This document shows positions 311-17,434 of a stretch of 29,310 nucleotides of DNA, piece after piece (within the stretch, counting starts at the first letter, position 1; every line of letters starts with the position of its first letter). The position numbers and the translations under genes are program-made. The stretch spans positions 1-29,310 of IMG/VR virus record IMGVR_UViG_3300007735_000581; one strand, given 5' to 3'. This DNA is from a virus. The notes under the pieces are model-generated. The model worked only from the letters and a program-made list of their open reading frames with translations. It made no database searches and was not told where the DNA came from.

Positions 311-468
311 CACACTTCCAAGCGTGGAACCTGACGTGCAACCAACCACTTGTCGCCAAGCCTACGGATAGAGCGTACCCATTGGCGTTGGTAACTGCGG
401 ATGGTTTCGGGTGGTGCATCGTATGTAGCAAAGATGCGACGAACATGTGTTAAGTATCTAGTGTTCAT
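310..468 (-). CDS. Small basic hypothetical protein (52 aa)
   Basis: A short gene reading MNTRYLTHVRRIFATYDAPP and ending RQVPRLEV. It starts at the ATG at 468, ten bases after the stop of the DUF3150-like gene, and a GAAAGG ribosome site overlaps that stop. It ends in TGATG, sharing bases with the next start at 310. The product is rich in Arg, Tyr and Trp with no Cys, so a nucleic-acid-binding or protein-contact role is possible but not shown. No family is recognised. Support comes from the Shine-Dalgarno site, the coupling at both ends and the fit into the operon. Longer frames on the same strand (225-446, 61-243) overlap it, lack such signals, and look like shadows. Confidence 0.6.
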   Translation of the reverse strand: MNTRYLTHVRRIFATYDAPPETIRSYQRQWVRSIRRLGDKWLVARQVPRLEV

Positions 469-477
469 GATTGCCTT

Positions 478-1362: not shown

Positions 1363-1380
1363 GATAAGAACTCCTTGTGA

Positions 1381-2505: not shown

Positions 2506-2528
2506 GATATAGATCTCCAAAGATTAAG

Positions 2529-3734
2529 TTAAACAGAAATGTGCAAGACTTTGCCATAGGTAGGAACGAATGACTCGTTCTCTACCACACCCCACAGAGA
2601 TGGCATTGGGGTATTCGGGGTATCGCAACCAAGGTAACCATCTGTCAACCAGACGATTGCCCGAGCGTCGATCTTGTGTTCCTTGATGTAGTCGACAACA
2701 ACATCAGGAGTAGTACCGCCACCGCCCTTGGGGTTCATGAGCGAAGCGATCTGTTCGTAGTCAGCAGGCTTGAAGGCTTGGTCACCGCATACGCTAGTGT
2801 CCCACCACAACACACGCACACCCGCAGGCTTGGTGATGTTGCAGATGCGAGCGATCTCACCGAACAGCAGACGATAGTACGGATACATAGAGCCCGAGGT
2901 ATCAACAGCGAGGATAAGCTCACCGACAGACTCGGTGAAGTGCGATGGCATAACGAAGCCCGATGCAAGCAAGCGTTTGTTGGGAGGACAGAAGCGAGAG
3001 TTGTCGTCGCCCGCAGAGATAGAACTAATCCATTCCTGAAGCGCTTGCTTCCAGTCAGTCATGCGTTCCTTGGCAGTGCCTAAGATGTCACGACCACCGC
3101 CCTCTTTACCCGCAAGCTTACGTGCAAGTATTTCGCCCTGACGATTGGCATCGTCGATCTGCTTGCCAAGTTTGTCTTGCTCGACGGGGTTGTCATCGAA
3201 CTCGCCATCCTCATGCGCATCGAGGGGCTCATCGAAGTCACCGCCATCACCATCGCCATCGCCCTCACCATCCTTGGGTTCCTTACGCCCGTTCTTGAGC
3301 ATGTCGTTGAGTACCTGAGGGAATGACCAACCGAAGTACTTGCGATCAATGCACAACGACTCAGTAGGACGCTCGACAAACTTGAAGTCGGGGTCAAGTT
3401 CCTCGATCAATGCGTTGACCACGTAGTCGTGTGCTATGTTGGTAAGCTTAGGCATCTTGCGTGTGTACTCTTTGAACAAGATGCAATGCTTCAGGGCAAC
3501 GTGAAAGTTCTCGTGCAGTACAAGGTAACGCATCTGCTTGCGGTTGAGTGGTGCAATGAAGTCAGCGCCATACTTCTTATCACGCCCATTGGTAGCGGCA
3601 GTACGTACCTTGGTAGACACCTCGCTCTTACCTAGCATGATGACGCCCGACAGCAAGGCGAACTTAGGGTGACGCATACAGTCAATGTTTGCGGCTTGGA
3701 CTCTCTGATTGAGAGTCATCTTCTCATAGCTCAT
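2529..3734 (-). CDS. Metallopeptidase-like/VWA fusion protein (MoxR partner)
   Basis: This 401-residue protein combines an N-terminal zincin-like domain with HENFH (HExxH) at residues 74-78, an Asp/Gly-rich acidic linker at about 150-185, and a C-terminal VWA domain. The VWA domain has a full MIDAS: DTSGSM at 278-283, a Thr in GGGGTTP at 337-343, and Asp in LTDGY at 363-367. It resembles the DUF2201-type 'VWA-like metallopeptidase' proteins encoded beside MoxR ATPases (family knowledge from memory). The intact HExxH suggests it may bind zinc and cut a protein, while the MIDAS suggests Mg-dependent partner binding. It is the first gene of the operon, 21-50 bases downstream of a strong promoter, with a CAGGAGA ribosome site before the ATG. 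Whether it is an active protease is not known. Confidence 0.85.
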   Translation of the reverse strand: MSYEKMTLNQRVQAANIDCMRHPKFALLSGVIMLGKSEVSTKVRTAATNGRDKKYGADFIAPLNRKQMRYLVLHENFHVALKHCILFKEYTRKMPKLTNIAHDYVVNALIEELDPDFKFVERPTESLCIDRKYFGWSFPQVLNDMLKNGRKEPKDGEGDGDGDGGDFDEPLDAHEDGEFDDNPVEQDKLGKQIDDANRQGEILARKLAGKEGGGRDILGTAKERMTDWKQALQEWISSISAGDDNSRFCPPNKRLLASGFVMPSHFTESVGELILAVDTSGSMYPYYRLLFGEIARICNITKPAGVRVLWWDTSVCGDQAFKPADYEQIASLMNPKGGGGTTPDVVVDYIKEHKIDARAIVWLTDGYLGCDTPNTPMPSLWGVVENESFVPTYGKVLHISV

Positions 3735-3761
3735 AGTGCTTCTCCTGTTTTGTTTAAAGAA

Positions 3762-3797
3762 ATTATAGCATAGGTTGTCAAAGACTTGACAACCTAT
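3762..3797 (-). promoter_or_regulatory. Extended -10 promoter inside a perfect 28-bp palindrome
   Basis: On the minus strand a perfect extended -10, TGCTATAAT (3770-3762), lies 28 bases before the start at 3734. Directly upstream is a perfect inverted repeat, 12-bp arms ATAGGTTGTCAA / TTGACAACCTAT around a 4-bp centre (3770-3797). It covers the whole -35 zone; a TTGTCA lies 19 bp from the -10. The palindrome fits an operator for a dimeric repressor or activator. It could also fold as an RNA hairpin ending the transcript of the gene at 3816, but no U-run follows at once. The promoter would drive the VWA/ATPase/DUF3150 operon. Confidence 0.7.
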
Positions 3798-3815
3798 CGG
3801 AAACCCTGAGGTAAC

Positions 3816-4796
3816 TCAAGTGTGAATATTAGAACGTGGGTATTCAGAATGTTTCGGGAATTGTTTCACCTCCTCTGGTTTCTTCATTGAGTTGCTACCA
3901 ACGTATTTGTGTATCCTGTCAAGGATGGCACGCCTGAACTCAGTCATCTCGATGGGCTTGGCTAGCTCGTCGACTGTGCTATTTTGATTACCATTCTGTC
4001 GGCTATACCAAGAGCCCCCGACTTGAAAGTCTGCCTGTTGCATACCGCGCTTGGATGCGATGATGTCGTAGGCTTTCTGGCACATCTCAAAGAACACGTC
4101 GATGTCCTGTTGTCGTGGCTCGGGGTCAGTCCACATCTCTTGTATCGCCATGTAGTATGCGCGGTTGTATCCCTCACCACCGAACTTCTGTCCGAGGCGG
4201 TAGTCAATGTTGCACTCCGCTTTGAACTCGGGCATACGCATCTGTGCAAGCATGATGTATGGCTCGAAGTGTGCGGCAACCTTAGCCTTGAACTTGCGGA
4301 CATCGGTGTCCGCGACTAGTCGGTAGTGTGGTGTGTGACGTGAGCGTGTGGGGTCTAGCACGCCATCGACAAACACAGCGTCCAAGCTGAACGGCACGCC
4401 CTCATCTTTCATGAAGTGCTCGGTGTAGATAGGCATGATGATCGACTCATCGCTGTACATGTCATCGCTATCACGTTGTCTGTTCGCACCAACGTCAACG
4501 CGTAGCGTGTGATACATGAACTGCTTACTGGTCTGCGATGAGTGACCCATGTATAGCCTACGCTCAACGCGCTTGCCGTCCTCTACCTTGGGCTCATAGA
4601 ACCGCGCCATGATTGTTTGATACAGCTTGATGTCGAAGTACTTGCCGTACTCGTTACTGCCCTCGATGAGTCTGTGGTGTGCCACAGGCTTGGGGTCTAG
4701 TGGTCGCTCGTTGGGTTGCCACTTGATACTGCGTACTGCACCTCGTTGTGCGAATGTACCCAATGCCTCGTCATAGTTTTTACATACGTATGCCAT
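3816..4796 (-). CDS. Conserved hypothetical phage protein (326 aa)
   Basis: A 326-residue soluble protein starting MAYVCKNYDEALGTF. The start has GGAG nine bases upstream. It has mixed alpha/beta character, is rich in Tyr, Met, Arg and Asp, and ends in a basic tail. No signal peptide, membrane segment, or nucleotide- or metal-binding motif is obvious. It is transcribed with 4802-6313 (5 bases after the preceding stop), so it shares their promoter, while the palindrome at 3770-3797 separates it from the next operon. I do not recognise the family. The HH and H-x-R residues scattered through the first half do not form a known motif. Confidence 0.8.
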   Translation of the reverse strand: MAYVCKNYDEALGTFAQRGAVRSIKWQPNERPLDPKPVAHHRLIEGSNEYGKYFDIKLYQTIMARFYEPKVEDGKRVERRLYMGHSSQTSKQFMYHTLRVDVGANRQRDSDDMYSDESIIMPIYTEHFMKDEGVPFSLDAVFVDGVLDPTRSRHTPHYRLVADTDVRKFKAKVAAHFEPYIMLAQMRMPEFKAECNIDYRLGQKFGGEGYNRAYYMAIQEMWTDPEPRQQDIDVFFEMCQKAYDIIASKRGMQQADFQVGGSWYSRQNGNQNSTVDELAKPIEMTEFRRAILDRIHKYVGSNSMKKPEEVKQFPKHSEYPRSNIHT

Positions 4797-4801
4797 GATA
4801 A

Positions 4802-5221
4802 TTACTCCTGTGTTGTTAAAGTTGATTCCACTGCGGGGATGGGTGGAAACGCTGTGTTTATCTCGTGCCTTGTAGTGATGTAGTCATACAAGTCACCATC
4901 GTTGTCGTCTTCATCGAAATCTTCAGCGCCATCCTCACCGACGCCTACGAACCTAAACCTCCCTCCTTTCTCTTCTCCATAAATTTCTACTGCCTCGCGC
5001 ATCAATGCGCGGTGCGCCTTCACGTCATCGAATGAGTCGTACCACTTCACATCCTCGGCCTCAAAGGTAATGATTGGGTCAAGCGTATACCCATATTCAC
5101 ACTCATTGATGGCCTCGGTTATGTGCTTGTCGTTCTTCGCAAGCATCAGCGTTACGAAGTTGTCTCGTGTCTCGATGTCATTGAACTTGATGACATACGC
5201 TACGTCTGATCTGTATCCCAT
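4802..5221 (-). CDS. Conserved small acidic phage protein (MGYRSDV family)
   Basis: A 139-residue protein that begins MGYRSDVAYVIKF, an N-terminus I recall from many unrelated phage hypothetical proteins. It has an alpha/beta ferredoxin-like pattern (VAYVIKF ... FVTLMLA ... RFRFVGVG) followed by a highly acidic stretch (residues about 103-112, DFDEDDNDGDLYDY) and a short tail. The start is preceded by GGAGGAATAATC. It is packed two bases from the upstream gene and five from the downstream one, so all are co-translated. Its biochemical role is unknown; the acidic region could mimic DNA or bind basic partners, but that is speculation. Confidence 0.78.
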   Translation of the reverse strand: MGYRSDVAYVIKFNDIETRDNFVTLMLAKNDKHITEAINECEYGYTLDPIITFEAEDVKWYDSFDDVKAHRALMREAVEIYGEEKGGRFRFVGVGEDGAEDFDEDDNDGDLYDYITTRHEINTAFPPIPAVESTLTTQE

Positions 5222-5223
5222 GA

Positions 5224-5883
5224 TTATTCCTCCTGTAAATATCCGTTGATGTCAAAGCGCCATCCGTTGATGTCGCACACTTCTTTAAAGCGTTCTTCGC
5301 TTGCGTACTCGTCGTACTCATCACGCAGTTGTGAGTAGATGTCGTTGGCATAGTTACGCGCCTCGTTCTCTACCCATTGATGTAGTTCATTTAGTCGTTC
5401 GTCCACACTGATGGAATTCATAAGCGCCTGCACACTCGCACCTTCAAGTATCCCTGCGTCTATGCATGAGTCGCCGTCCGCGTTGTAGAAGCTCTCGCTG
5501 ATGTCCTCCACTCGCATCGTACCGCTGTGGTTGTAGTAGAAGCCACTACGAGATACACCAACGTGTGTGTCTGTCCATCCCTCTTTGATGAGTTCGTTAA
5601 GCACAAAGTATTGCGTGTAGTCGTGGTTGTCAGGCTTGTTGTGGTACTCAATGAAGCGAGGTAGGCGCACCATACCTGTCCACGAAGCGCCATCACCTTG
5701 CGATGAGAAGCCCGACCATGCTACTTCTTCTATCTCAAAGCCCCTCTCGGGGCCGTCCTGTTTAGCACGAGCGATGATCTCATCTGCCCAGTCATCTGGC
5801 GCATCGTTGTACCGCGACATAGCGTTAGCTTTGCCGTAGGCGTTGAGTTCATCGAACGCAAGCAGTTGCGTTGTTGTGTCCAT
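5224..5883 (-). CDS. Conserved hypothetical phage protein with GFSSQGDGASW motif
   Basis: A 219-residue acidic protein. It opens with a short helix (LLAFDELNAYGKANAMSRY) and then the block WSGFSSQGDGASWTG at about residues 55-69. This block, with its paired aromatic and glycine residues, is shared by a widespread phage protein group that I recall as sometimes labelled 'antitoxin of TA stability system' without firm proof. The C-terminal half is helical and acidic. No catalytic motif can be named. The gene is spaced four bases from its upstream and two from its downstream neighbour. No toxin-like partner is visible beside it, so I do not call a toxin-antitoxin system. Confidence 0.78.
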   Translation of the reverse strand: MDTTTQLLAFDELNAYGKANAMSRYNDAPDDWADEIIARAKQDGPERGFEIEEVAWSGFSSQGDGASWTGMVRLPRFIEYHNKPDNHDYTQYFVLNELIKEGWTDTHVGVSRSGFYYNHSGTMRVEDISESFYNADGDSCIDAGILEGASVQALMNSISVDERLNELHQWVENEARNYANDIYSQLRDEYDEYASEERFKEVCDINGWRFDINGYLQEE

Positions 5884-5887
5884 AGTA

Positions 5888-6313
5888 TTAGTCCACGTTG
5901 ATGGTTGCGGTAAAGGTTATGTTGTCCTTGATGGACGCTGTGATGACATCTGTGAAGTCGAAGTCGTTGATCGCATCGTTGACTGCATCGCTGATCTGAC
6001 TGTCGAAGTCGTGATCTTCAACTGCGCTCACAGCCATGTCGTTGATAGCGTCCTCGCTGATGTGGTACTCAGCATCGTTGTGCTCACTAATCGCGCCCTC
6101 GACGACTGCTGTCGCGATCTCTTTGATCTGCTCTACGAAGCCATCGTCGATAACTCGCAGGGTGCGGTGACTCATGAGTATCTCGTTGACTTGCGCTGAC
6201 ACAATGTCTTTGATGTAGTTCTCAACGAGCGCCATGAGCGTGGTCATCAGCGCCGATGTTGGCATTGATGGTTGAGTGGTTTGAGTTGTTGTTTGAACTG
6301 TAGTTTGTTCCAT
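5888..6313 (-). CDS. Acidic hypothetical protein (141 aa)
   Basis: The frame is open to 6352, but I place the start at the ATG at 6313 (MEQTTVQTTTQTTQ) because TTTTGGAGATTTATC precedes it; the extra 13 residues of the longer version lie in an AT-rich leader. After a Thr/Gln-rich N-terminus comes a helix-rich acidic protein with repeated short units of the type 'D-A-I-N-D' (for example AINDMAVSAVEDHDF and AVNDAINDFDF at about residues 92-124). This suggests a small helical repeat, possibly an oligomer or a DNA mimic. No family is recognised. It heads the four-gene set 6313-3816. Confidence 0.72.
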   Translation of the reverse strand: MEQTTVQTTTQTTQPSMPTSALMTTLMALVENYIKDIVSAQVNEILMSHRTLRVIDDGFVEQIKEIATAVVEGAISEHNDAEYHISEDAINDMAVSAVEDHDFDSQISDAVNDAINDFDFTDVITASIKDNITFTATINVD

Positions 6314-6344
6314 GATAAATCTCCAAAAAATTAAAAAGAAAGAT

Positions 6345-6361
6345 GTGGACAATTTGTCCGC
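6345..6361. repeat. 17-bp palindrome, copy 1 of 4
   Basis: GTGGACAATTTGTCCGC is an imperfect palindrome of the consensus GCGGACA-nnT-TGTCCGC. With its right flank (6345-6367, ending GCGAGTTA) it matches copy 2 (7597-7619) at 20 of 23 bases. It lies in the leader of the gene at 6313 and is followed on the minus strand by a T-rich stretch. It is a candidate protein-binding site; the T-rich tail also leaves open a weak terminator. Confidence 0.65.
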
Positions 6362-6412
6362 GAGTTAAAAGCGTGGCGGGATGCCACAAAGAAAGAATGA
6401 CCGTTTCTTTTG

Positions 6413-6505
6413 TTACCCCCCTCTCCAGTAGAACAAGTCAAGGATTAAGACAATGATGGCCAGTAAGACCACCGCCCGTTCGAGTTTTTCCCATTTAGTC
6501 AGCAT
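6413..6505 (-). CDS. Single-pass membrane micropeptide (30 aa)
   Basis: A 31-codon frame encodes MLTKWEKLERAVVLLAIIVL and then ILDLFYWRGG. It has a short charged, amphipathic N-terminus, one hydrophobic helix (residues about 11-26) and an aromatic C-terminal end, typical of a single-span inner-membrane peptide. The ATG at 6505 overlaps the previous stop (TAATG), and a strong AAGGAG lies within the last codons of that gene, seven bases before the ATG. It is too short for standard length cut-offs. The role is unknown. A regulator of a host membrane complex, a superinfection factor or a small lysis-related peptide are all possible. Position away from late genes argues mildly against a holin. Confidence 0.68.
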   Translation of the reverse strand: MLTKWEKLERAVVLLAIIVLILDLFYWRGG

Positions 6506-7200
6506 TACTTCTCTCCTTTTAAATATGCCAATGATCTTGGCGGTACAAACTTGCTGTCTTTGTTCACTTGCGTGAACTCATCGCGGTATTTGATGAGCAT
6601 CGGGGTGCGGGATTGTTTGTATATAGGTGGCAGTGCCGCCCACATATCTCTTATCTTGGTGAACACCTCGGGCTCTATGTAGTCGTCCCACTCTGCGCTA
6701 GCAGGTCGGCGTGGGTGTAACGCGTGGCTGTACTCGGCGTATTCCTTTGCCCTTTTGAGCATCCCCATGTACTCGTGGTAGAACGTGGCCTTGTCCACGT
6801 AGCCCTTGCGCTTTGCATACATCCACGCATTACGGGCGCTGACGATCTCCCACTTGATGGGCGCTAATACATCGGCTAACTCGGCCTTCCATACCTTGAG
6901 CCACCGCTTACGGGCGGCTATGGCCTGCGCGTTGCGCTCATCTTGCGCTTGCTTTTCTCTGAGGTGTTTGGCTACAAGCACGTTCATGTCCCCCGTCTGA
7001 ACCTTGTTGTGTATCTCTTTGGCGCTGAGCTTGGTCGGGGGTTTGCGCTTGGGACGGCAGGCTTTGCAGTTCTTGGACTCGAGCGTCATGCGTACGTTGC
7101 CTGCTCTGCCCCATGCTTTTGACTGTGCATACGTAGCGAGATACGTGAAGTCGTTGAGGGGGCGCGACTCCCCACATTTAGCGCACGTTTTGATTTGCAT
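6505..7200 (-). CDS. Zinc-ribbon hypothetical protein (231 aa)
   Basis: This 231-residue basic protein begins with a probable zinc ribbon: CAKC at residues 6-9 and CKAC at 45-48. The spacing resembles the N-terminus of some phage HNH-type or recombination-associated proteins, but no HNH catalytic core is visible afterwards. The rest is helical, rich in Arg, Lys, Trp and Tyr, and includes a basic patch KRKPPTKLS after the second Cys pair, so DNA or RNA binding is likely (inference). The start has AAGGAG five bases upstream. It sits directly beside the 21-bp-spaced repeats at 7228-7277, so it could be the protein that binds them. Confidence 0.75.
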   Translation of the reverse strand: MQIKTCAKCGESRPLNDFTYLATYAQSKAWGRAGNVRMTLESKNCKACRPKRKPPTKLSAKEIHNKVQTGDMNVLVAKHLREKQAQDERNAQAIAARKRWLKVWKAELADVLAPIKWEIVSARNAWMYAKRKGYVDKATFYHEYMGMLKRAKEYAEYSHALHPRRPASAEWDDYIEPEVFTKIRDMWAALPPIYKQSRTPMLIKYRDEFTQVNKDSKFVPPRSLAYLKGEK

Positions 7201-7227
7201 ACTTTCTCCTTATAGTTTTGGGCTAAC

Positions 7228-7277
7228 TGGCCCACTTGGTTTTGTAACTGGCCCACCATTCAACACAGGTGGCCCAC
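7228..7277. repeat. Three TGGCCCAC repeats with exact 21-bp spacing
   Basis: TGGCCCAC begins at 7228, 7249 and 7270, each 21 bp apart, or two helical turns, so the sites face the same side of DNA. The flanks vary; copies 1 and 2 share a preceding AAC and copies 1 and 3 a following TTG. Such phasing is typical of iterons or cooperative regulator sites. The first copy is 28 bases from the ATG at 7200, so binding could also control that gene. Confidence 0.6.
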
Positions 7278-7295
7278 TTGTGGATGACGAGGTCA

Positions 7296-7327
7296 AACGT
7301 AGTATACACGCGGGTTTGCGCTCGATG
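7296..7327. repeat. Imperfect direct repeat, left copy
   Basis: This segment (AACGTAGTATACACGCGGG and onward to CGATG) matches 7472-7501 (AACGCTAGTATCCATGCGGG and onward to CGATG) with a few substitutions and small gaps. The two copies lie on either side of the AT-rich core. Confidence 0.5.
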
Positions 7328-7471
7328 TGACCAAAATACCCACCATTTTTCAAGAACACTAAGGCTAACTTGAAAACATGAACGACAAGACACACCCAGC
7401 AATACACAAATATATATATCTAAATGAAAATTGTATTTATATATATAGGTATTGTGGACGTGGACATTGCG

Positions 7472-7501
7472 AACGCTAGTATCCATGCGGGTTACGCGAT
7501 G
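7472..7501. repeat. Imperfect direct repeat, right copy
   Basis: Partner of 7296-7327 and in the same orientation. Both share AACG, TAGTAT, GCGGGTT and a final CGATG. Such paired repeats beside an AT-rich tract are common near origins and promoters. Confidence 0.5.
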
Positions 7502-7567
7502 CCCGTGTGTGTGTCCAGTCGTGTAAAGTGGTGGGTATGTGCGAAAATACAACACTTTTACCTCACT

Positions 7568-7589
7568 TCTCCACAATACGTTGTGGAGA
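7568..7589. other. Perfect 9-bp hairpin with UACG tetraloop
   Basis: Arms TCTCCACAA (7568-7576) and TTGTGGAGA (7581-7589) surround TACG, a UNCG-type loop that is very stable when read as RNA on the plus strand. It lies about 28 bases after the stop at 7617 on the minus strand. No U-run follows on either strand, so an RNA-stability or recognition element fits better than a simple terminator. Confidence 0.55.
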
Positions 7590-7596
7590 GATAGTT

Positions 7597-7613
7597 GCGG
7601 ACAGATTGTCCGC
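7597..7613. repeat. 17-bp palindrome, copy 2 of 4
   Basis: GCGGACAGATTGTCCGC has perfect 7-bp arms around GAT. It lies 3 bases beyond the stop codon of the gene at 7617-7823, and its flank GCGAGTTA includes that stop. It matches copy 1 over 23 bases (20 identical). Confidence 0.65.
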
Positions 7614-7616
7614 GAG

Positions 7617-7823
7617 TTAGAGGAGTCGCAGTTGCTTGGACTCGCGCTTGATGGATTCCCACTCGTCCATGGAATCCCGCGCTTGTTGTTCGCGCAGTTG
7701 TGCCTTGTGTTGCATGAGGGCTTTGTGGTTGCGCTTGCCTAGCTCGATCATCTCTACGTACTGTTGGCGTAGCTCTTTCATTTGAGAGAGGGCGTAGTGT
7801 TTGTTCTTAGATGATTTGCTCAT
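7617..7823 (-). CDS. Small coiled-coil hypothetical protein (68 aa)
   Basis: A 68-residue, highly charged helical protein (MSKSSKNKHYALSQMKELRQ) rich in Gln, Glu, Lys and Arg with no Cys, Gly or Pro. The heptad-like spacing of Leu, Met and Ile over residues 11-66 suggests a coiled coil. The start is preceded by a weak GCGAG, with the same ...TAATCATC ATG context as the upstream gene. No family is recognised. It follows a small membrane protein gene by five bases, so the two could act as a pair (inference). Confidence 0.55.
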   Translation of the reverse strand: MSKSSKNKHYALSQMKELRQQYVEMIELGKRNHKALMQHKAQLREQQARDSMDEWESIKRESKQLRLL

Positions 7824-7828
7824 GATGA

Positions 7829-7987
7829 TTACTCGCTTTCTGTGAATAGGAATAGAACACCGCCGAAGCAGAAGCCTGCAAGCACGAGTAGTGCTTGGCG
7901 TAAGTAGTAGCCGTCAGTATCAAAACCAATGGCTATGCCGATACAACCCATGAGGGTGAGTGCGTGGATTATGAATTTGTCGTGCAT
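7829..7987 (-). CDS. Small two-helix membrane protein (52 aa)
   Basis: I place the start at the ATG at 7987 (MHDKFIIHALTLMGCIGIAI) because CGGAG lies ten bases upstream; the longer frame to 8020 would place that site inside the gene. There are two hydrophobic segments, residues about 5-19 and 28-47, joined by a short polar loop (FDTDGYYLRQ), and the protein ends FTESE. It is probably an inner-membrane hairpin. A holin-like function cannot be excluded from size and topology, but its place in the leftward, probably early module makes that less likely. No family is recognised. Confidence 0.6.
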   Translation of the reverse strand: MHDKFIIHALTLMGCIGIAIGFDTDGYYLRQALLVLAGFCFGGVLFLFTESE

Positions 7988-8009
7988 GATGATTACTCCG
8001 ATTGACATG

Positions 8010-8044
8010 AAAAGAAACAACGCAAGGGGCTCGCTCTCTTGCGT
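8010..8044 (-). terminator. Probable leftward terminator
   Basis: Arms ACGCAAG (8020-8026) and CTTGCGT (8038-8044) form a 7-bp stem with an 11-base loop. On the minus strand the stem is followed by TGTTTCTTTT (8019-8010). It lies 32 bases beyond the stop at 8076 and would end or reduce transcription from the promoter at 8547. Confidence 0.5.
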
Positions 8045-8057
8045 CTACGAAAAACTC

Positions 8058-8074
8058 ACGGACAAGTTGTCCGC
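8058..8074. repeat. 17-bp palindrome, copy 3 of 4
   Basis: ACGGACAAGTTGTCCGC lies directly after the stop codon at 8076. With flanks (8051-8078) it matches the in-gene copy 4 (8397-8424) at 24 of 28 bases in the same orientation. Confidence 0.65.
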
Positions 8075-8075
8075 A

Positions 8076-8468
8076 TCAGGCTTTCAGTTGCAGGGTTGTG
8101 AAACGGCGCTTCTCACCAGCGCTGAGTGCTTGCCACTTCTTGAACAATGCCGCGACTGGATCAACCTTGTTGGCAGTAGCTTTGGGAGTCTTAGGCTTGG
8201 GCGCATCAGCCTTGGGGTAACACACTTCCAACACGCGGTTCATAGCACGCTCAGCGTTAGTGTCGCGCTTCACGAACGTCATACCGCGTTGTCCCTGCTT
8301 GATAGGTTCGTTGTCGTGCTTCTTAGAAGCCCACTCCATTGCGAATGGCTTAGCCTCAGCACGCGATGCGATGCCTAACTCCATCAGCCTCACAGCGAAA
8401 CTGGCGGACGAGTTGTCCGCATCATTGAACACAGCGAACACAGCTACACGATTGAATGACTTAGTCAT
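8076..8468 (-). CDS. Basic hypothetical protein, first gene of leftward module (130 aa)
   Basis: I choose the ATG at 8468 (MTKSFNRVAVFAVFNDADNS) because GGAGAG lies six bases upstream; the longer frame to 8624 would run through a promoter and hairpins. The 130-residue protein is basic, with an alpha/beta N-terminus, a Pro/Lys/Ala-rich hinge (residues about 88-101, PKADAPKPKTPKAT) and a helical C-terminus. No family is recognised. As the first gene after a controlled leader, a regulatory or host-takeover role is plausible (inference). The fourth 17-bp palindrome lies inside the coding sequence, encoding residues D-N-S-S-A. Confidence 0.68.
   Translation of the reverse strand: MTKSFNRVAVFAVFNDADNSSASFAVRLMELGIASRAEAKPFAMEWASKKHDNEPIKQGQRGMTFVKRDTNAERAMNRVLEVCYPKADAPKPKTPKATANKVDPVAALFKKWQALSAGEKRRFTTLQLKA
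8404..8420. repeat. 17-bp palindrome, copy 4 of 4 (inside a gene)
   Basis: GCGGACGAGTTGTCCGC has 6-bp perfect arms GCGGAC/GTCCGC. It is within the gene at 8076-8468, about 50-65 bases from its start. Its flanks match copy 3 (24 of 28 bases). Confidence 0.6.
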
Positions 8469-8480
8469 AGATAACTCTCC

Positions 8481-8510
8481 AAAAGAAAAAGCCTCGCAGA
8501 CGGGCGAGGC
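8481..8510 (-). terminator. Hairpin plus U-tract in the leader of the first leftward gene
   Basis: Arms GCCTCGC (8491-8497) and GCGAGGC (8504-8510) give a 7-bp GC-rich stem with a 6-base loop. On the minus strand it is followed by TTTTTCTTTT (8490-8481) and then at once by the ribosome site GGAGAG. It therefore lies between the promoter at 8547 and the first gene. It is a textbook terminator shape placed as an attenuator, or a site needing antitermination. Confidence 0.65.
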
Positions 8511-8517
8511 AACCTCT

Positions 8518-8538
8518 CGGTTGGGCAACCCCCAACCG
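8518..8538 (-). promoter_or_regulatory. First leader hairpin at the transcript 5' end
   Basis: Arms CGGTTGGG (8518-8525) and CCCAACCG (8531-8538) form a perfect 8-bp stem with a 5-base loop. It begins within a few bases of the expected start of transcription at about 8540 and precedes the terminator-like hairpin at 8491-8510 by 7 bases. Confidence 0.6.
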
Positions 8539-8570
8539 ATGCATCTATTATACCACAAGGGGTTGCCAAA
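8521..8570 (-). promoter_or_regulatory. Extended -10 promoter flanked by a 12-bp dyad
   Basis: On the minus strand TGGTATAAT (8555-8547) is a perfect extended -10; no good -35 is seen at 16-18 bp. A 12-bp inverted repeat with one mismatch (TTGGGCAACCCC 8521-8532; GGGGTTGCCAAA 8559-8570) is centred on the -10, with arm centres 38 bp apart. This fits a repressor operator. The promoter would start the leftward module. Confidence 0.65.
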
Positions 8571-8652
8571 TACACTTGACAGTCCCGTATGCCTGTGAGC
8601 CGAACCCCACCCTACCCCCACCAAGCCCTATTGAGCCGTGCCGTGGCGTCAT

Positions 8653-8674
8653 GGTGTGAACACTGTTTCGCACC
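8653..8674. promoter_or_regulatory. Imperfect dyad, possible operator
   Basis: GGTGTGAA (8653-8660) and TTCGCACC (8667-8674) are inverted repeats with one mismatch around CACTGT. It lies between the two transcription units, about 100 bp upstream of the leftward promoter. This is a weak candidate for a regulator site. Confidence 0.35.
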
Positions 8675-8684
8675 CGCAAATCAA

Positions 8685-8712
8685 TTTTTAAAAAACCCGA
8701 CTAACCTATACT
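8685..8712 (+). promoter_or_regulatory. Weak candidate rightward promoter
   Basis: TATACT (8707-8712) follows an AT-rich TTTTTA at 16 bp spacing (8685-8690). The match to a sigma-70 promoter is poor, so late transcription may instead use a phage-controlled promoter or readthrough. No better rightward promoter is visible before 8908. Confidence 0.22.
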
Positions 8713-8769
8713 GTACAAAAACACAGCACCCCTAAAAAATTTTATAAAAATTTGGAAAAACCTCAAGGC

Positions 8770-8803
8770 AAAAAAAAGCCCCACCAGCGTCAACTAGTGG
8801 GGC
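8770..8803 (-). terminator. Leftward rho-independent terminator
   Basis: Arms GCCCCAC (8778-8784) and GTGGGGC (8797-8803) form a 7-bp stem, followed on the minus strand by eight T residues (8777-8770). It faces leftward although the genes to its right read rightward. It would stop antisense transcripts from the structural module before the leftward promoter. Confidence 0.7.
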
Positions 8804-8907
8804 AAAGATGGCAACAATCCATCAAGGAGAAGCAAGGACTTGCGTCGATGCCGAAAAGAAGTGTACACTCTCGCCAACGAGGAAGCAACTGAAAAGGATT
8901 CCTACGC

Positions 8908-9510
8908 ATGTTAGATCACTTGGTGCATTTCGAACCTGAGGTCACCTCTCGGGATGGTTTGATGAAACTGGACGACGCGACGCCCAGTGATACTCTGTCG
9001 GCGCAAGTTGCTACAGAGCAGTGGTTAGCTGAGATGGGCGTGGATGACGACGAAGTAGTCGCTAACCAACAACAGACACAGGCTGCGCGAAAAGCGTTCA
9101 ACGCTGTGACAACCGACGCCACCACCACGGAACAAAAAGCTAGCCTAGCAGAACTAAAAACCCCAGCGGCTGTAAGACATCTGACGGGCATGTTGGCTGC
9201 GTACGACTGGCAGTTTATAGACATGGCGCAGGAAATCAGGGGCTACACGGTAGCTAAACTGGTTGAAGAAACAAAATCCCCCAACGCCAACATCCGCCTT
9301 AAAGCTTTGATCGCTCTAGGCAAGGTTACAGAAGTGGGGCTCTTTACTGAGCAAATTGAGGTCAAGAAAGTTGAGATGACGGACGCTCAAGTTGAGCAGC
9401 GCATCAAAGATAAGTTGGCCAAGTTCATGGGAGTGATAGACGTGGTGGACGTTTCCGAGCGCCCAGACGATAGTCCAGCAGAGAAGAATGATGGGCCAGA
9501 TGGACTTTGA
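8908..9510 (+). CDS. Terminase small subunit
   Basis: A 200-residue acidic protein upstream of, and overlapping, the large terminase gene. Residues about 107-165 (IRGYTVAKLVEETKSPNANI, then RLKALIALGKVTEVGLFTEQ) match the pattern of the C-terminal helical and beta region of P22/Nu1-like small terminases as I recall it. The N-terminal part is acidic and variable. It recognises phage DNA for packaging and hands it to the ATPase/nuclease subunit. The start has AAAAGG eight bases upstream. It overlaps the next gene by 23 bases, so the two are probably translated together. A 14-codon frame (8848-8892) ends just before the ribosome site and could be a leader peptide. Confidence 0.78.
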   Translation: MLDHLVHFEPEVTSRDGLMKLDDATPSDTLSAQVATEQWLAEMGVDDDEVVANQQQTQAARKAFNAVTTDATTTEQKASLAELKTPAAVRHLTGMLAAYDWQFIDMAQEIRGYTVAKLVEETKSPNANIRLKALIALGKVTEVGLFTEQIEVKKVEMTDAQVEQRIKDKLAKFMGVIDVVDVSERPDDSPAEKNDGPDGL

Positions 9511-11041
9511 GCAGTTCACATCCATCAGCAAGGTGGAGATTGAAGCGATTAAAAAAGCGCTTCCCTATATGTCGTTGAGCGACAAGATTGAGCTTCTTGA
9601 CGATATAGAGATCCGCGAACGTCGCGCTAGCCTGACAGCCGCTAAGACGAACATGTTGGGCTTTGCTACATCTGTGTACCCCGGCTTTAAAATTGGCCCC
9701 CATCACAGGAAGCTGGCTAAGATCTTTACGGACGTGGTCGAGGGCAGGAAGAAGCGTGTGATTATCAACATCGCGCCGCGTATGGGTAAGTCTGAGTTCT
9801 CCTCTTACTTGTTCCCCGCATATTTCCTTGGCAAGTACCCCAACAAGAAGATCATCATGGGCACGCACACTGCGGGTCTGTCTGAAGACTTCGGGCGGCG
9901 CGTACGTAACTTGATTGACTCTGATGAATACCGTGATGTCTTTCCTCAAACGCTGGTTGCTGATGACCAAAAGGCTGCTGGTAAATGGTCTACAAGCGCT
10001 GGCGGTCAGTATTATGCTGCTGGTGTCGGGGGCGCTCTTGCTGGTCGTGGTGCTGATCTGTTCGTTATTGACGATCCTCATTCCGAGCAGGACGTTAAGA
10101 TCAATTCGAGACTGGCTTTTGATACCGCATGGTCGTGGTTCCAGACCGGGCCGCTCCAACGTCTGATGCCGGGGGGCGCGATCATTATTGTGATGACGCG
10201 TTGGTCGCTGTTAGACCTGACTGGGCGCTTAATTGACTACCAAGCGAAGAATCCGGACTCGATTCCATGGGAGATTGTGGAGCTTCCGGCCATTTTGAAC
10301 GAGGATGAGGACAACGAGAAGTCGCTTTGGCCCGAACAGTGGCCTCTTGAAAGCTTAAAAGCTACAAAAGCGTCGATTGACCCACGATATTGGAACGCGC
10401 AGTACATGCAGCAGCCCACATCGGAGAACTCTGCCATCGTGAGCCGTAAGATGTGGCGTATTTGGGAGCCGGATGACCCGCCGAGGTGTGAATACATCAT
10501 CCAGTCTTGGGATACGGCGTTTGAAACCAAGAATACATCCGACTATTCCGCGTGTACAACGTGGGGTATCTTCTACAACGAGGAAGAAAATGACTCCCCC
10601 CAGCTTATCCTTCTGGATGCGTTTAAAGATCGCATGGCTTTCCCTGAACTTAAGGTGGTGGCGCTTAAACAATACAAAGAGTGGGAACCCGACGCGTTCA
10701 TTGTGGAGAAAAAGGCATCTGGGGGGCCGTTGATTCAGGAACTCCGGGCATTGGGAATTCCGGTTCAGGAGTTCAGCCCCAGTCGCGGTAACGACAAGAT
10801 GGTGCGTGTCAACGCTGTTGCGGATTTGTTCAGTTCAGGTAAAGTCTGGGCACCCGACACACGCTGGGCAAGAGAAGTGATTGAAGAGTTGGCCGCGTTC
10901 CCAGTTGGGGAGCACGACGACTTCGTGGATACGACAACACAGGCGCTGCTACGCTTTAGGCAAGGTGGCTTTATCAGTTTAGACACGGACGAGAAAGACG
11001 ACCTTGCGCTCTTTCACCGTAAAAAATACGAATACTACTAG
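9488..11041 (+). CDS. Terminase large subunit (packaging ATPase/nuclease)
   Basis: A 517-residue large terminase. The ATPase domain has Walker A APRMGKS at residues 96-102, Walker B LFVIDDP at 191-197 and a coupling motif MTRWS at 236-240. The RNase-H-like nuclease domain has WDTAFE (341-346), a conserved Glu in VEKKASG (406-412) and HDDFVD (476-481), giving the expected acidic cluster. It pumps DNA into the prohead through the portal and cuts it. The length is normal for the family. The start could be Met1, Met2 or Met5, all preceded by GAGAAG. It is followed after nine bases by the portal gene, the usual arrangement. Confidence 0.97.
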   Translation: MMGQMDFEQFTSISKVEIEAIKKALPYMSLSDKIELLDDIEIRERRASLTAAKTNMLGFATSVYPGFKIGPHHRKLAKIFTDVVEGRKKRVIINIAPRMGKSEFSSYLFPAYFLGKYPNKKIIMGTHTAGLSEDFGRRVRNLIDSDEYRDVFPQTLVADDQKAAGKWSTSAGGQYYAAGVGGALAGRGADLFVIDDPHSEQDVKINSRLAFDTAWSWFQTGPLQRLMPGGAIIIVMTRWSLLDLTGRLIDYQAKNPDSIPWEIVELPAILNEDEDNEKSLWPEQWPLESLKATKASIDPRYWNAQYMQQPTSENSAIVSRKMWRIWEPDDPPRCEYIIQSWDTAFETKNTSDYSACTTWGIFYNEEENDSPQLILLDAFKDRMAFPELKVVALKQYKEWEPDAFIVEKKASGGPLIQELRALGIPVQEFSPSRGNDKMVRVNAVADLFSSGKVWAPDTRWAREVIEELAAFPVGEHDDFVDTTTQALLRFRQGGFISLDTDEKDDLALFHRKKYEYY

Positions 11042-11049
11042 GACTACAC

Positions 11050-13545
11050 ATGGCAACGAACATTGACAAAGCGCTGTACCAACAACCAATGGGCATTGAC
11101 GCGCTGGGCGAACAAGAATCACCACTAGAGATTGAGATTGTTGATCCCGAAGAAGTCACCATTGGCATGGACGGGGTGGAGATCACCATCACGCCCGGAG
11201 AAGATGACGGCGAAGAAGGGTTCAGTGATAACTTGGCCGAGTACATAAAAGACGGTGCCTTGCAGTCGCTGGCTGGGGACTTGGTGTCTGACATTGACAA
11301 CGACAAGAATGGCCGCAAGGATTGGGAGAAGACATACGTTGATGGTCTGAAGCTGCTTGGCTTGCAGATTGAGGAAAGAACGGAACCTTGGAACGGCGCA
11401 TGCGGCGTGTTCCATCCCATGATTACAGAAGCGGTTGTGCGCTTCCAAGCAGAGACAATCACTGAGACGTTCCCAGCCCAAGGGCCTGTGCGTAGCAAAC
11501 TCATCGGCAAAGAAACGCCAGAGATGAAAGAGATTGCGATCAATGTCGAAGACGACATGAATTACGAGTTGACGGAAGTCATGACGGAGTACCGCGCTGA
11601 ACACGAGCGCATGCTCTGGTCACTGCCAGCCACAGGCTCAGCATTTAAGAAGGTCTACTACGATCCCAATTTGGGACGTCAGGTGTCGATGTTTATTCCT
11701 GCGGAAGATATGTACCTACCGTACGGCACAACGGACTTAGACACTTGCTACCGCATCACGCACGTCATGCGCAAGACCAAGAACGAGATCATCAAACTAC
11801 AGCAGGCGGGCTTCTACCTTGACATCGAGTTGCCCGACTCACCGAAAGAGTTGACCGACATTCAGAAAGCCAAGGACAAAGAGACTGGCTTTAGTGACTT
11901 GAACGACGACCGCTACACACTGTATGAGTGCCATGTGGACTTGAACCTTGAAGGTTACGAAGACAAGGACGACTCTGGCGAAGATACCGGCATCATGTTG
12001 CCGTACGTTGTCACGTTGATTAAAGGCACTAACAACATCTTGTCAATCCGCCGCAACTGGAACGAAGACGATGACCTCCGACTTAAACGCCAGCACTTTG
12101 TGCACTACCAATATATCCCGGGTTTTGGAGCTTACGGCTTCGGGCTTTTCCATCTTATCGGAGGCTTTGCTAAATCCGCTACATCCCTCATGCGACAACT
12201 TGTCGATGCAGGAACCCTATCTAATTTGCCCGGCGGACTCAAGACACGGGGCCTGCGCATCAAAGGTGACGACACACCAATCGCACCCGGAGAGTTCCGT
12301 GACGTAGACGTTGGCTCGGGCACGATCCGCGACAACATCTTGCCGCTGCCATACAAAGAGCCAAGCGCTACGCTGTTTAACTTGATGCAGACCATCGTTG
12401 ATGAAGGCCGCCGCTTTGCTGCGACTGCTGACATGAAGGTGTCTGACATGTCTGCGCAGGCCCCCGTGGGTACGACGTTGGCACTGCTTGAGCGTCAGTT
12501 AAAAGTGATGACGGCTGTTCAGGCGCGTGTGCACTTCGCATTGAAGCAAGAGTTCAAACTCTTGAAGAACATCATCCGCGACTACACCGACGCTGACTAC
12601 ACATACACACCCGAGTACGGCACTCGCAAAGCTAAGAAAGCCGACTATGACTTGGTGGACATCATCCCCGTGTCAGACCCCAACGCTGCGACCATGTCTC
12701 AGCGCGTTATCCAGTACCAAGCCGTCATTCAGATGGCGCAGATGGCTCCGGACATTTACAACTTGCCCGAACTTCATCGCGGTATGTTGAACGTGTTGGG
12801 TATCAAGAACGCTGAGAAGCTGGTGCCAATTGAGGACGATCAGAAACCGATTGATCCCGTGCAGGAAAACCAGAACGCACTTAAAGGCAAACCCCTCAAA
12901 GCGTTCTTGCATCAAGATCACGCTTCTCACATTCAAGTGCACATGATGCTGCTTCAAGACCCGATGATGCAGCAGTTCATTGGCCAGAACCCACAAGCTC
13001 CCAAGATCATGGGTGCTATTACGGCGCACATTGCAGAGCACGTTGGTTACCAGATGCGCCAGCAAATTGAGCAGCAGTTGGGTATGCCACTGCCTCCCGA
13101 AGACGAGAAATTGCCACCAGAGATTGAGATTGCTCTGTCCGGCATGATGGCTCAAGCGGCCAATCAGGTAATGATGCAGAACAAAGCCAAGGCTGCGCAG
13201 ATGCAGGCACAGCAACAAATGCAAGACCCCGTGTTGCAGTTGCAGATGCAGGAGCTTCAACTCAAAGGCCAAGAGCTGGAGTTGAAGAAACAGAAGATCA
13301 TGATGGACGCTGCTGCCAAGGCCGACGCACAGGCTTTGAAAGAGCAAGAAGTCAGCGGCAAACTGGAGTTGGAAGCTCTTCGCACAGGTGCGCAAATCAA
13401 AGAGAGCGAATTTAAGCAACAGTTTGAACAAGAACGTGCTGGCATCCAAATAGGTGCTGACATCGCAAAGAGTAAAGCCCAGATGGACTTACAAGCGCGC
13501 ACTGCTGCGCTCCCAAATAGCAGGAACCAAGGTTCTAGAAAATGA
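11050..13545 (+). CDS. Portal protein (P22-like, 831 aa)
   Basis: An 831-residue protein directly after the large terminase. After an acidic N-terminus (residues 24-60) comes a portal core with conserved features such as EPWNGACGVFHPMITEAVV (about 117-135), PAEDMYLPYG (217-226) and AQAPVGTTLALLE (472-484). The C-terminal 170 residues are rich in Gln, Met, Ala and Lys and form a long coiled-coil barrel like that of the P22 portal (established for that family). Twelve copies form the ring at one capsid vertex through which DNA passes. Its size, greater than the usual 500-residue portals, favours the P22-like group. Its stop overlaps the next start (ATGATCC / TGA). Confidence 0.93.
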   Translation: MATNIDKALYQQPMGIDALGEQESPLEIEIVDPEEVTIGMDGVEITITPGEDDGEEGFSDNLAEYIKDGALQSLAGDLVSDIDNDKNGRKDWEKTYVDGLKLLGLQIEERTEPWNGACGVFHPMITEAVVRFQAETITETFPAQGPVRSKLIGKETPEMKEIAINVEDDMNYELTEVMTEYRAEHERMLWSLPATGSAFKKVYYDPNLGRQVSMFIPAEDMYLPYGTTDLDTCYRITHVMRKTKNEIIKLQQAGFYLDIELPDSPKELTDIQKAKDKETGFSDLNDDRYTLYECHVDLNLEGYEDKDDSGEDTGIMLPYVVTLIKGTNNILSIRRNWNEDDDLRLKRQHFVHYQYIPGFGAYGFGLFHLIGGFAKSATSLMRQLVDAGTLSNLPGGLKTRGLRIKGDDTPIAPGEFRDVDVGSGTIRDNILPLPYKEPSATLFNLMQTIVDEGRRFAATADMKVSDMSAQAPVGTTLALLERQLKVMTAVQARVHFALKQEFKLLKNIIRDYTDADYTYTPEYGTRKAKKADYDLVDIIPVSDPNAATMSQRVIQYQAVIQMAQMAPDIYNLPELHRGMLNVLGIKNAEKLVPIEDDQKPIDPVQENQNALKGKPLKAFLHQDHASHIQVHMMLLQDPMMQQFIGQNPQAPKIMGAITAHIAEHVGYQMRQQIEQQLGMPLPPEDEKLPPEIEIALSGMMAQAANQVMMQNKAKAAQMQAQQQMQDPVLQLQMQELQLKGQELELKKQKIMMDAAAKADAQALKEQEVSGKLELEALRTGAQIKESEFKQQFEQERAGIQIGADIAKSKAQMDLQARTAALPNSRNQGSRK

Positions 13546-13736
13546 TCCAAGACTTCGTACGCGTATTACGTGAAAAAATACGCACTGACATGAACAACTA
13601 TGCCGACGACTTGGCTGGCGGTTCGTGCCGTACTTTTGAAGAGTACCAAAAACTCTGCGGGATTATTCAGGGTCTAGCCCTCGCAGAGCGTTATTTACTT
13701 GACCTTGCACAGAAAGTTGAAGAATCCAATGAGTGA
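13542..13736 (+). CDS. Small conserved portal-adjacent protein (64 aa)
   Basis: A 64-residue helical protein (MIQDFVRVLREKIRTDMNNY). It overlaps the portal gene by four bases (ATGA) and overlaps the next gene by eight. A conserved look (LAGGSCRTFEEYQKLCGIIQ, GLALAERYLLDL) suggests a small head-associated or assembly factor. I recall similar small genes after portal genes in other phages but cannot name a function. It has two Cys residues at 29 and 39. Confidence 0.75.
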   Translation: MIQDFVRVLREKIRTDMNNYADDLAGGSCRTFEEYQKLCGIIQGLALAERYLLDLAQKVEESNE

Positions 13737-14166
13737 CATTGATCTCTCCCCCGGTGCTTTTGCACTGCCTGAACCCATCCAGCCTCTGGATGCGCCTGAA
13801 ACTGAAGCTAACGATGAGCAGAAGGCCACGCAACTTCCTATCCCAACGGGTTGGAAGATTCTTTGCGCGGTGCCCGACATCTCTGAACGAGTGGATGGTA
13901 CAAGTTTGGACTTAGTCCGACCCATTGAAAGCATGCGCCAAGAAGAAACAGCAACCACTGTGTTGTTTGTTTTGAAGGTTGGCCCCGATGCGTACAACGA
14001 CACCGCCAAGTTTCCCAACGGAGCATGGTGTAAAGAGGGCGACTTCGTGTTAGTACGTACTTACTCCGGCACAAGATTCAAGATCTTTGGCAAGGAGTTC
14101 CGTCTCATCAACGACGACCAAGTTGATGCTGTTGTGCAAGACCCTCGCGGCTTAACCCGCGCTTGA
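13729..14166 (+). CDS. GroES-like co-chaperonin (head assembly)
   Basis: I take the ATG at 13729 (MSDIDLSPGAFALPEPIQPL) because it overlaps the preceding stop; an in-frame earlier start at 13699 would lie well inside the upstream gene. After a 38-residue Pro/Glu-rich leader, residues about 40-135 follow the GroES pattern: GWKILCAVPD like the DRV/I strand, a mobile-loop region (residues about 55-73), FVLKVGPDAY like the 'VLAVGNG' turn, CKEGDFVLVRTYSGTRFKIF like 'VKVGDIVIF', and LINDDQVDAVV at the end. Phage GroES-like proteins (T4 gp31 is the known case) replace host GroES so that GroEL can fold the capsid protein. The position between portal and scaffold supports this. It lacks strong identity, so I call it by pattern only. 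Confidence 0.62.
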   Translation: MSDIDLSPGAFALPEPIQPLDAPETEANDEQKATQLPIPTGWKILCAVPDISERVDGTSLDLVRPIESMRQEETATTVLFVLKVGPDAYNDTAKFPNGAWCKEGDFVLVRTYSGTRFKIFGKEFRLINDDQVDAVVQDPRGLTRA

Positions 14167-14176
14167 AAGGAAGAAT

Positions 14177-17405: not shown

Positions 17406-17434
17406 AAAAGGGGCCTTGTGCCCCTTTTTCTTTT
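17406..17434 (+). terminator. Rho-independent terminator after major capsid gene
   Basis: AAAAGGGGC (17406-17414) pairs with GCCCC plus the start of the U-tract (17420-17429) around CTTGT; TTTTTCTTTT (17425-17434) follows. This is a strong intrinsic terminator, 20 bases after the capsid stop. Readthrough or a new promoter is needed for the genes from 17533. Confidence 0.87.

Follow-up and report, generated by a model that had tools for sequence, protein, structure and literature searches.

How a phage expresses a gene block that begins directly behind an apparent transcription terminator is the question raised by this locus. The window analysed here is the whole of IMG/VR virus record IMGVR_UViG_3300007735_000581 (29,310 bases, positions 1 to 29,310), in which the minus strand codes the left arm, the plus strand codes the right arm (terminase and downstream genes), and the two diverge around 8480-8900. 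The original prediction placed a leader ahead of the first leftward gene and proposed it to be an attenuator or a put-like antitermination element. An extended -10, two hairpins, a U-tract, GGAGAG and the first gene are indeed present where they had been placed (Table 1). The attenuator part stood, as promoter, 5'-terminal hairpin and terminator shape recur in relatives, and the put-like part did not. The leader is of an ordinary kind, though its setting is unusual, and the more interesting result is that palindromes dispersed in the arm covary with ORF1, the first gene.

Table 1. Features of the leftward arm, in order of leftward transcription
Feature	Position	Strand	Basis
Leftward promoter: TGTCAAG upstream element, 23-nt spacing, extended -10 TGG-TATAAT (8555-8547)	8547..8581	minus	pattern matches; 47 distinct leaders
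Predicted transcription start, 7 nt past the -10 hexamer	8540	minus	promoter geometry
Hairpin 1, 9 bp, begins at about +1/+2; stem CGGTTGGG/CCCAACCG (8538-8518), additional pair 8539/8517	8517..8539	minus	
Hairpin 2, 7 bp with 6 GC, -12.4 kcal/mol; arms GCCTCGC/GCGAGGC	8491..8510	minus	
U-tract UUUUUCUUUU (DNA TTTTTCTTTT); with hairpin 2 has intrinsic-terminator form	8481..8490	minus	
Shine-Dalgarno GGAGAG	8475..8480	minus	
ORF1, 130 aa, ATG at 8468; variable N-terminal domain and conserved C-terminal ~30 aa; proposed palindrome-binding protein	8076..8468	minus	
Imperfect palindrome GCGGACGAGTTGTCCGC within ORF1, differing from the type at one position	8404..8420		
Dispersed palindrome just past the ORF1 stop, then GAGTTTTT leftward; terminator-like in a loose scan	8058..8074		
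Dispersed palindrome GCGGACAGATTGTCCGC after ORF2, switched in relatives	7597..7613		
Dispersed palindrome copy, core GGACAATTTGTCC at 6347-6359	6345..6361		

The window belongs to a lineage of uncultivated tailed phages with a terminase resembling those of Pelagibacter phage HTVC027P and phage DSL-LC04. When ORF1 was compared by tblastn with 50,697 phage records, named phages gave zero matches at E <= 1, and ORF1 relatives came from contigs of uncultivated viruses (the protein at 29 loci and an alignment at 41, the sets overlapping). Terminase-based relatives were taken from the best 80 of 598 loci, and among these a comparable leader, judged by eye, precedes the first leftward gene at 49 loci with room for one. 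The promoter pattern is present in 49 stretches, and TGTCAA followed after 20-26 nt by a -10 is common to 47 distinct promoter-leader sequences. Merging sequences on their first 40 nt gave 74 distinct leaders for comparison. Of these, 32 came from the promoter pattern, and for the remaining 42 the hairpin was taken into account when the -10 was picked, either automatically by hairpin energy or by hand, such that hairpin statistics from them are biased. Of 20 long records searched with a covariance model of the leader, 19 gave a match, a presence that is circular because the records were picked for containing the leader or its neighbours. In two of the 20 long records, the same model found a hairpin 1-like hairpin followed immediately by a terminator after a capsid-like gene (L206, 247-310 plus; L207, 557-620 minus; G020 and G002), and the window has a different terminator at the corresponding place (17406-17428). 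An Rfam search of the window returned zero matches at gathering score and 12 below threshold, 8 of them on the region 8859-8763.

Two other features near the start were considered and rejected. The extended -10 had been described as the centre of a 12-bp dyad (8521-8532/8559-8570), and the dyad is present in the window; its conservation, however, is absent among the 47 leaders. The window alone reaches 11 of 12 arm matches, the next best leader reaches 9, and arms mixed between different leaders reach 11 in 27 of 2000 draws. With 10 or more of 12 matches in only 1 of the 47 distinct leaders, an operator over the -10 was discarded. A leader peptide was also discarded, as the window's ATG lies just before +1 with no visible Shine-Dalgarno, and an ATG is, by eye, absent from several leaders.

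Compensatory stem changes in related phages had been proposed as a check, and both hairpins do keep pairing through such changes in 26 aligned leaders. The leaders were hand-picked from 41 distinct ones plus L029, with L104 and L028 (without hairpin 2) and near copies excluded, and some distant rows were misplaced by the aligner. Standard pairs fill 91.1% of cells, compared with 48.1% or less when the partner is slid by 1-3 columns and 85.5 +- 0.6% when the 3' letters are dealt anew. The covariation score was 0.288 (shuffles, 0.213 +- 0.013) and changes on both sides occurred in 25 cells (shuffle mean, 8.3), and for each measure 0 of 500 shuffles scored as high. In the same 26 leaders, neither the count of double-change pairs (6 versus 4.3, 60 of 500 shuffles as high) nor that of further pair types (17 versus 18.2, 466 of 500 as high) rose above shuffles.

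Folding of hairpin 1 was scored on a 34-nt segment from the 5th base after the -10 hexamer against dinucleotide shuffles, and z had a median of -3.16, falling below -2 in 62 of 74 leaders (60 of 74 in a rerun), between -2 and 0 in 12, and above 0 in none. In the leaders defined by the promoter pattern only, z was below -2 in 25 of 32 (median, -3.24), and segments of equal length reached that level in 0 of 32 at each of 45, 85 and 125 nt upstream, in 3 of 32 at 85 nt downstream and in 10 of 32 at 125 nt downstream. The first paired base lies 5-8 nt past the hexamer in 68 of 74 leaders and in 29 of 32 of the pattern-only set (5 being the minimum that the segment allows), which puts the base of the stem at the predicted +1 or beside it, as in 5'-terminal stabilising stem-loops. 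The apex is semi-conserved: in 49 distinct apices, GGG/CYC accounts for most closing pairs, at 0.8-1.3 bits per position, and the loop (GGTTG in the window, AUUCG in some relatives) starts with A or G in 47 and ends with G in 34. Such semi-conservation exceeds what pure end protection needs and counts against our main reading. Hairpin 1 appears to be the older and more widespread part of the leader, and its role is most likely protection of the 5' end, or else that of a target for a binding factor.

What occupies the second hairpin slot differs among relatives. By score, the 74 distinct leaders comprise 34 with a terminator, 26 with a hairpin that lacks a U-tract and 14 with nothing; L057 and L066, although scored as terminators, resemble palindrome copies with loose U content, and the stricter terminator count is 32. 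Hairpin 1 is also found in the 40 leaders that score as terminator-free, and in 38 of these the choice of -10 took the hairpin into account. Of the 26 leaders with a hairpin 2 and no U-tract, 25 have as that hairpin a copy of the palindrome dispersed in the same arm, where it recurs 1-6 times downstream. The arm of hairpin 2 recurs as a palindrome in 4 of the 34 scored terminators, two being L057 and L066, and the leaders of L156 and L159 carry both a palindrome and a terminator.

In the window, hairpin 2 has the shape of an intrinsic terminator, with its GC-rich stem followed by 9 U of 10, and a pattern scanner listed it among 28 terminator-like sites in positions 1-15000 (shuffles, 14.2 +- 3.9). 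Under a strict criterion (at or below -9 kcal/mol and at least 6 U of 8), it is the sole coding-strand site of the window's 8.6-kb arm, with 1 site on the other strand; a loose scan finds more terminator-like sites, including the palindrome after ORF1 at 8075-8057. Of three related stretches, L210 has 1 strict terminator, in the leader, and L211 has 2, one in the leader and one at the palindrome after ORF1. L209, the leader of which has no terminator, has 5 on the arm's strand, and by our reckoning one of the 5 is a palindrome with a U-tract inside a short arm piece and the rest lie upstream of the leader. The palindrome after ORF1 may itself terminate transcription in some relatives.

A classical attenuator, in which terminator and antiterminator are mutually exclusive, was rejected. 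Hairpins 1 and 2 coexist in all 34 terminator-scored leaders, with median pair probabilities of 0.95 and 0.99 and lowest means of 0.74 and 0.85, and thus a conserved alternative antiterminator fold is absent from these 34. Before its 3' arm is made, the 5' arm of hairpin 2 is paired with a probability of 0.58 in the window and 0.67 in L033 (median, 0.17), which we read as an unconserved alternative of 4 bp, GAGG/CCTC.

The palindromes that enter the leader slot are dispersed in the left arm. A dominant short palindrome occurs in the left arms of 70 of the 71 distinct contigs having an arm of 2.5 kb or more; the exception, L104, has the promoter, and a recurrent palindrome was not found in its 2.8 kb of arm. 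Within 5 kb of left arm the top palindrome is counted 2-7 times in the 70 contigs and at least 3 times in 68, compared with once in 58 and twice in one of the 59 right sides available, and once in 69 and never in one of the 70 shuffled left arms. Sites of a contig's own type, one mismatch allowed, number 321 in 366 kb of left arm and 2 in 330 kb of right side, a contrast that is partly built in because the type was chosen on the left arm, and the top-count comparison is the fairer control. Exact copies of clearly different types were found 5 times in 852 contig-by-type tests, versus 258 of the own type. Sites fall in gaps between open reading frames in 154 of 321 cases and gaps make up 13.6% of the arm, both figures using non-overlapping frames, as overlapping mechanical frames overstated the coding overlap.

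Spacing and position within the arms suggest what the palindromes are. Most types have a constant spacer, among them GTGGAGA (2 in 38 of 38), CGGGTCA (3 in 28 of 28) and GATTCAG (1 in 9 of 9); it is 3 in 124 of 135 and otherwise spaced in 11 of 135 GCGGACA sites, and is mixed in the three types GGGGAGA, GGGGAAA and GTGGGACA. Of 70 contigs, 62 have a site between -150 and +170 relative to the leader promoter (28 of 29 of the GCGGACA type), and 18 own-type sites, one mismatch allowed, lie in the 150 nt upstream of that promoter. Copies upstream of the promoter occur in GTGGAGA contigs and in most of the GTGGTCA contigs listed. Short spacers and copies upstream of the promoter would suit DNA operators better than RNA hairpins.

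The window also contains palindromes of other kinds. One at 4296 was not accepted as a copy of the window's type and was treated as chance, being located within a gene and present also in L064, a contig of another type. A 28-nt palindrome, ATAGGTTGTCAAGTCTTTGACAACCTAT, stands directly before GCTATAAT (3797-3762 minus) upstream of the reading frame starting at 3734, and recurs, the same or nearly so, in L006, L016 and L024.

A candidate partner gene for the palindromes is suggested by their covariation with ORF1. First-gene families lack detectable N-terminal similarity to one another, and at least two of them have a common C-terminal stretch of about 30 aa. The set comprised 70 distinct contigs and 2415 pairs after arms under 2.5 kb, duplicates and L104 were excluded; ORF1 N-terminal domains were called related if blastp aligned 50 or more of the first 88 residues at E < 1e-6; and 16 palindrome types, 7 of them in one contig each, were labelled by hand before pairs were counted, with GCGGACA, GTGGACA and GGGGACA taken as different. 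Pairs with unrelated ORF1 N-terminal domains shared a palindrome type in 0 of 1729 cases, and pairs with related ones did so in 476 of 686, the other 210 being related yet of different type. The split held among close relatives: where right flanks are 92-100% identical, the type is shared in 0 of 6 unrelated and 18 of 18 related pairs, and at 85-92% identity in 0 of 88 unrelated and 72 of 83 related pairs. A quick tree of right flanks from 67 of the 70 contigs requires at least 17 changes of ORF1 family and 24 of palindrome type, and 8 independent contig pairs on supported branches that differ in membership of family A all differ in palindrome type; as types are never shared between families, all that the tree contributes is a count of independent events.

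Alternatively, ORF1 and the palindromes could covary through joint exchange of arm pieces, with another arm gene as the true partner or the palindromes as passive repeats. Contig pairs are not independent, and leaders too differ more between ORF1 families: the median leader identity is 0.83 in unrelated-ORF1 pairs versus 0.92 in related ones, and identity of at least 0.9 is reached in 3 of 94 versus 55 of 101. The leader nonetheless tracks ORF1 less strictly than the palindromes do, and L177 and L197 have an identical leader with unrelated ORF1. Against joint exchange, arms remain alignable in 82 of the 94 unrelated-ORF1 pairs with right identity >=85% (median, 77.9%), compared with 83.8% in related same-type pairs (86 of 90 alignable) and 78.9% in 11 related pairs of different type. 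Moreover, L157 and L004 are 97.4% identical on the right side and 87.8% over 3322 nt of arm, and both the ORF1 N-terminal domain and the palindromes differ. Finally, at the site after ORF2, the window has GCGGACAATCTGTCCGC, L190 has TGTGGAGAATTCTCCACA and L063 and L064 have TGTGGTCAAATGACCACA, with flanks conserved on both sides; this syntenic comparison covered 16 contigs, 4 of them without the second-site marker, and L039, L157 and L187 have a different upstream flank. The rest of the arm is not exchanged wholesale with the ORF1 domain. We consider the alternative of joint exchange unlikely. Beside the switched site lies a second palindrome, TCTCCACAA-N4-TTGTGGAGA (7568-7589), which is unchanged across ORF1 families in 12 of the 16 contigs.

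Because palindrome type follows the ORF1 N-terminal domain while the rest of the arm is kept, ORF1 is the best candidate for a palindrome-binding protein, and it most likely acts as an autoregulator. The window leader is itself without a palindrome, and ORF1 control there would therefore rest on the imperfect site inside ORF1. Database comparisons of the protein were largely silent: Pfam searches with 17 ORF1 members matched only two families, one member each, with a best E of 0.028, and ORF1 had no match in PHROGs, against which 10 window proteins were scanned. Two AF2 models of ORF1 (mean pLDDT, 70.6 and 75.6) have the order helix-helix-helix-beta hairpin-helix, which we take to be winged-helix-like as an order of elements, and we claim no fold. 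The models gave zero Foldseek matches at E <= 0.001 and no VIA-align Z of 5 or more.

How the leader and ORF1 might act together can be outlined. Polymerase, probably that of the host, would start near 8540, and the leader RNA would fold a hairpin at or within a few nucleotides of its first base. Hairpin 1 may shield the 5' end of the RNA, since RppH and RNase E are described as depending on single-stranded 5' ends, which explains mRNA stabilisation by 5' structure (PMC3997798). At about +31 to +60 polymerase would meet the intrinsic terminator, and a share of transcripts would stop at 8490-8481 as a short leader, with the remainder reading through into ORF1 and the leftward gene block. The terminator would be a clade-specific attenuator that lowers expression, and ORF1 made by read-through would bind palindromes of the arm, and those near its own promoter, to limit the gene block. 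The brake in the leader would be a palindrome in sister clades, a terminator in the window's clade, and both in L156 and L159. A promoter-proximal attenuator behind a 5'-terminal hairpin, coupled to ORF1-palindrome autoregulation, is our preferred reading of the window, and we give it an even chance of being right. The sequences themselves display the architecture, the pairing, the exchange of elements in the slot, the dispersed palindromes and the covariation, whereas the start site, termination, 5' protection, binding by ORF1 and repression are predictions made from them. More tentatively, and with a little less than even confidence, we propose that the lineage as a whole has swappable control, in which an exchangeable specificity domain of the first gene and 2-7 matching arm palindromes switch together as in immunity groups, and the leader slot takes a palindrome or a terminator as interchangeable brakes behind a widespread 5' hairpin. 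In such a system many of the palindromes would lie at gene boundaries, and each phage would mostly have one close to its own promoter or leader.

Other readings of the leader suppose that the terminator is overcome by antitermination. Nascent hairpins might bind RNA polymerase and render it resistant to this and later terminators without a protein, as for the HK022 put RNAs, which are described as about 70 nt long with two stem-loops, needing no dedicated protein and acting on terminators at least 10 kb away (PMC9378689). Like putL and putR, of which putL sits just downstream of its promoter, the leader forms RNA structure right behind an early phage promoter and ahead of a terminator (PMC9378689), and hairpin 1 is conserved with a semi-conserved apex. 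Unlike put, however, in which neither stem-loop is a terminator, the second hairpin here carries a U-tract and scores as one, and membership of the put class was rejected on that ground. Moreover, hairpin 1 alone is about 23 nt, it also occurs in terminator-free leaders, and the window's single strict coding-strand terminator would leave a processive antitermination system with little to act on in that arm. A put-like element is therefore very unlikely. Instead, a phage or host factor on hairpin 1 or at the promoter, LoaP-like or a TGTCAAG loader, could let polymerase pass the terminator. The order of hairpin then intrinsic terminator is that of the dfn 5' leader (PMC12691694), the apex is semi-conserved, TGTCAAG is conserved upstream of the extended -10, and palindrome-plus-U-tract terminators after ORF1 in L211 and L209 could be further targets. 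The dfn leader, however, is described as 417 nt long and as requiring the NusG paralogue LoaP and a UNCG hairpin (PMC12691694), whereas the window leader is about 70 nt with hairpin 1 at about +1. The 10 window proteins compared with PHROGs gave zero matches to antiterminator families, and hairpin 1 is present where the leader terminator is not, and we regard protein-dependent antitermination as improbable.

The short leader RNA could instead be the product, a small RNA of about 60 nt with a hairpin at each end, the downstream gene being expressed by read-through. A 5'-terminal hairpin and a 3' terminator would yield a compact RNA, and the greA leader RNA GraL is reportedly a comparable case. 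The single-stranded linker, however, is the only candidate seed and varies in sequence and length, and 40 of 74 leaders score without a terminator; such a product seems quite improbable. Alternatively, hairpin 2 and the U-tract might serve translation, as spacing or as a U-rich enhancer before GGAG, instead of termination. The U-tract does abut the ribosome site, but the 14 leaders without hairpin 2 show no comparable U-tract there, and the exact shape of hairpin then U is terminator-like. We give the translational role hardly any credence, and an attenuating terminator behind hairpin 1 remains our preferred reading of the leader.

The intergenic region upstream of the leader contains further signals. 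A perfect palindrome, AGTGTACACT (AGTATATACT in some relatives), is conserved upstream of the terminase block at 8860-8869 and reads as a -10 both ways, with TTGC boxes 17-18 nt off on either side (TTGCGT, 8840-8845 plus; TTGCTT, 8888-8883 minus), and it may be a bidirectional promoter. A leftward terminator at 8803-8778 minus lies between the two promoters, and in 35 of 47 relatives a terminator with changing stem sequence is found 191-275 nt before the leader promoter. RNA running from the palindrome to the 8803-8778 terminator would amount to a small RNA about 80 nt long, and Rfam small-RNA matches around the 8803-8778 region were all below threshold. We note that a G-rich GGTGGGGGTAGGGTGGGG and a conserved GAAACAGTGTTCA block lie between the genes at 8605-8622 and 8657-8669 minus, and that some relatives have the G-rich element in an inverted form, CCCCCAC..GTGGGG.

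Known systems resemble parts of this arrangement. Hairpin 1 is like the 5'-terminal mRNA-stabilising stem-loops, whose stem starts on the first nucleotide or close to it (PMC3997798); it differs in being spread across a phage lineage with a semi-conserved apex. The leader further suggests that sister phages can fill one slot either with an operator-like palindrome or with a terminator close to the promoter. Cluster O mycobacteriophages have 17-bp palindromes, TGTTCGG-N3-CCGAACA, with 34 in Corndog, and PMC4351075 describes their function as unknown. Alike are the 7-bp arms, the free 3-bp centre, the many copies and the intergenic ones being mostly in the leftward operon, but Cluster O is described as having a single sequence in five phages (PMC4351075), whereas 16 types track the arm's first gene here. 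The stoperators of Cluster A mycobacteriophages are likewise many dispersed sites per genome, with motif distances that correlate with repressor distances (PMC6550527; PMC9283540), and in the window's lineage site sequence would similarly covary with one regulator gene if ORF1 is the regulator. Stoperators, however, are described as asymmetric and mostly in one orientation (PMC6550527), and the sites here are palindromic with a candidate regulator. We take the palindrome-ORF1 link to be new, judged within open-licence papers. If true, it would extend multi-site phage regulation with co-evolving specificity beyond mycobacteriophages, to palindromic instead of asymmetric sites, and would provide a natural setting in which to test how numerous scattered sites come to change in concert. 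Ultimately, a partner gene that can be named would make questions such as the function of Corndog's palindromes (PMC4351075) testable.
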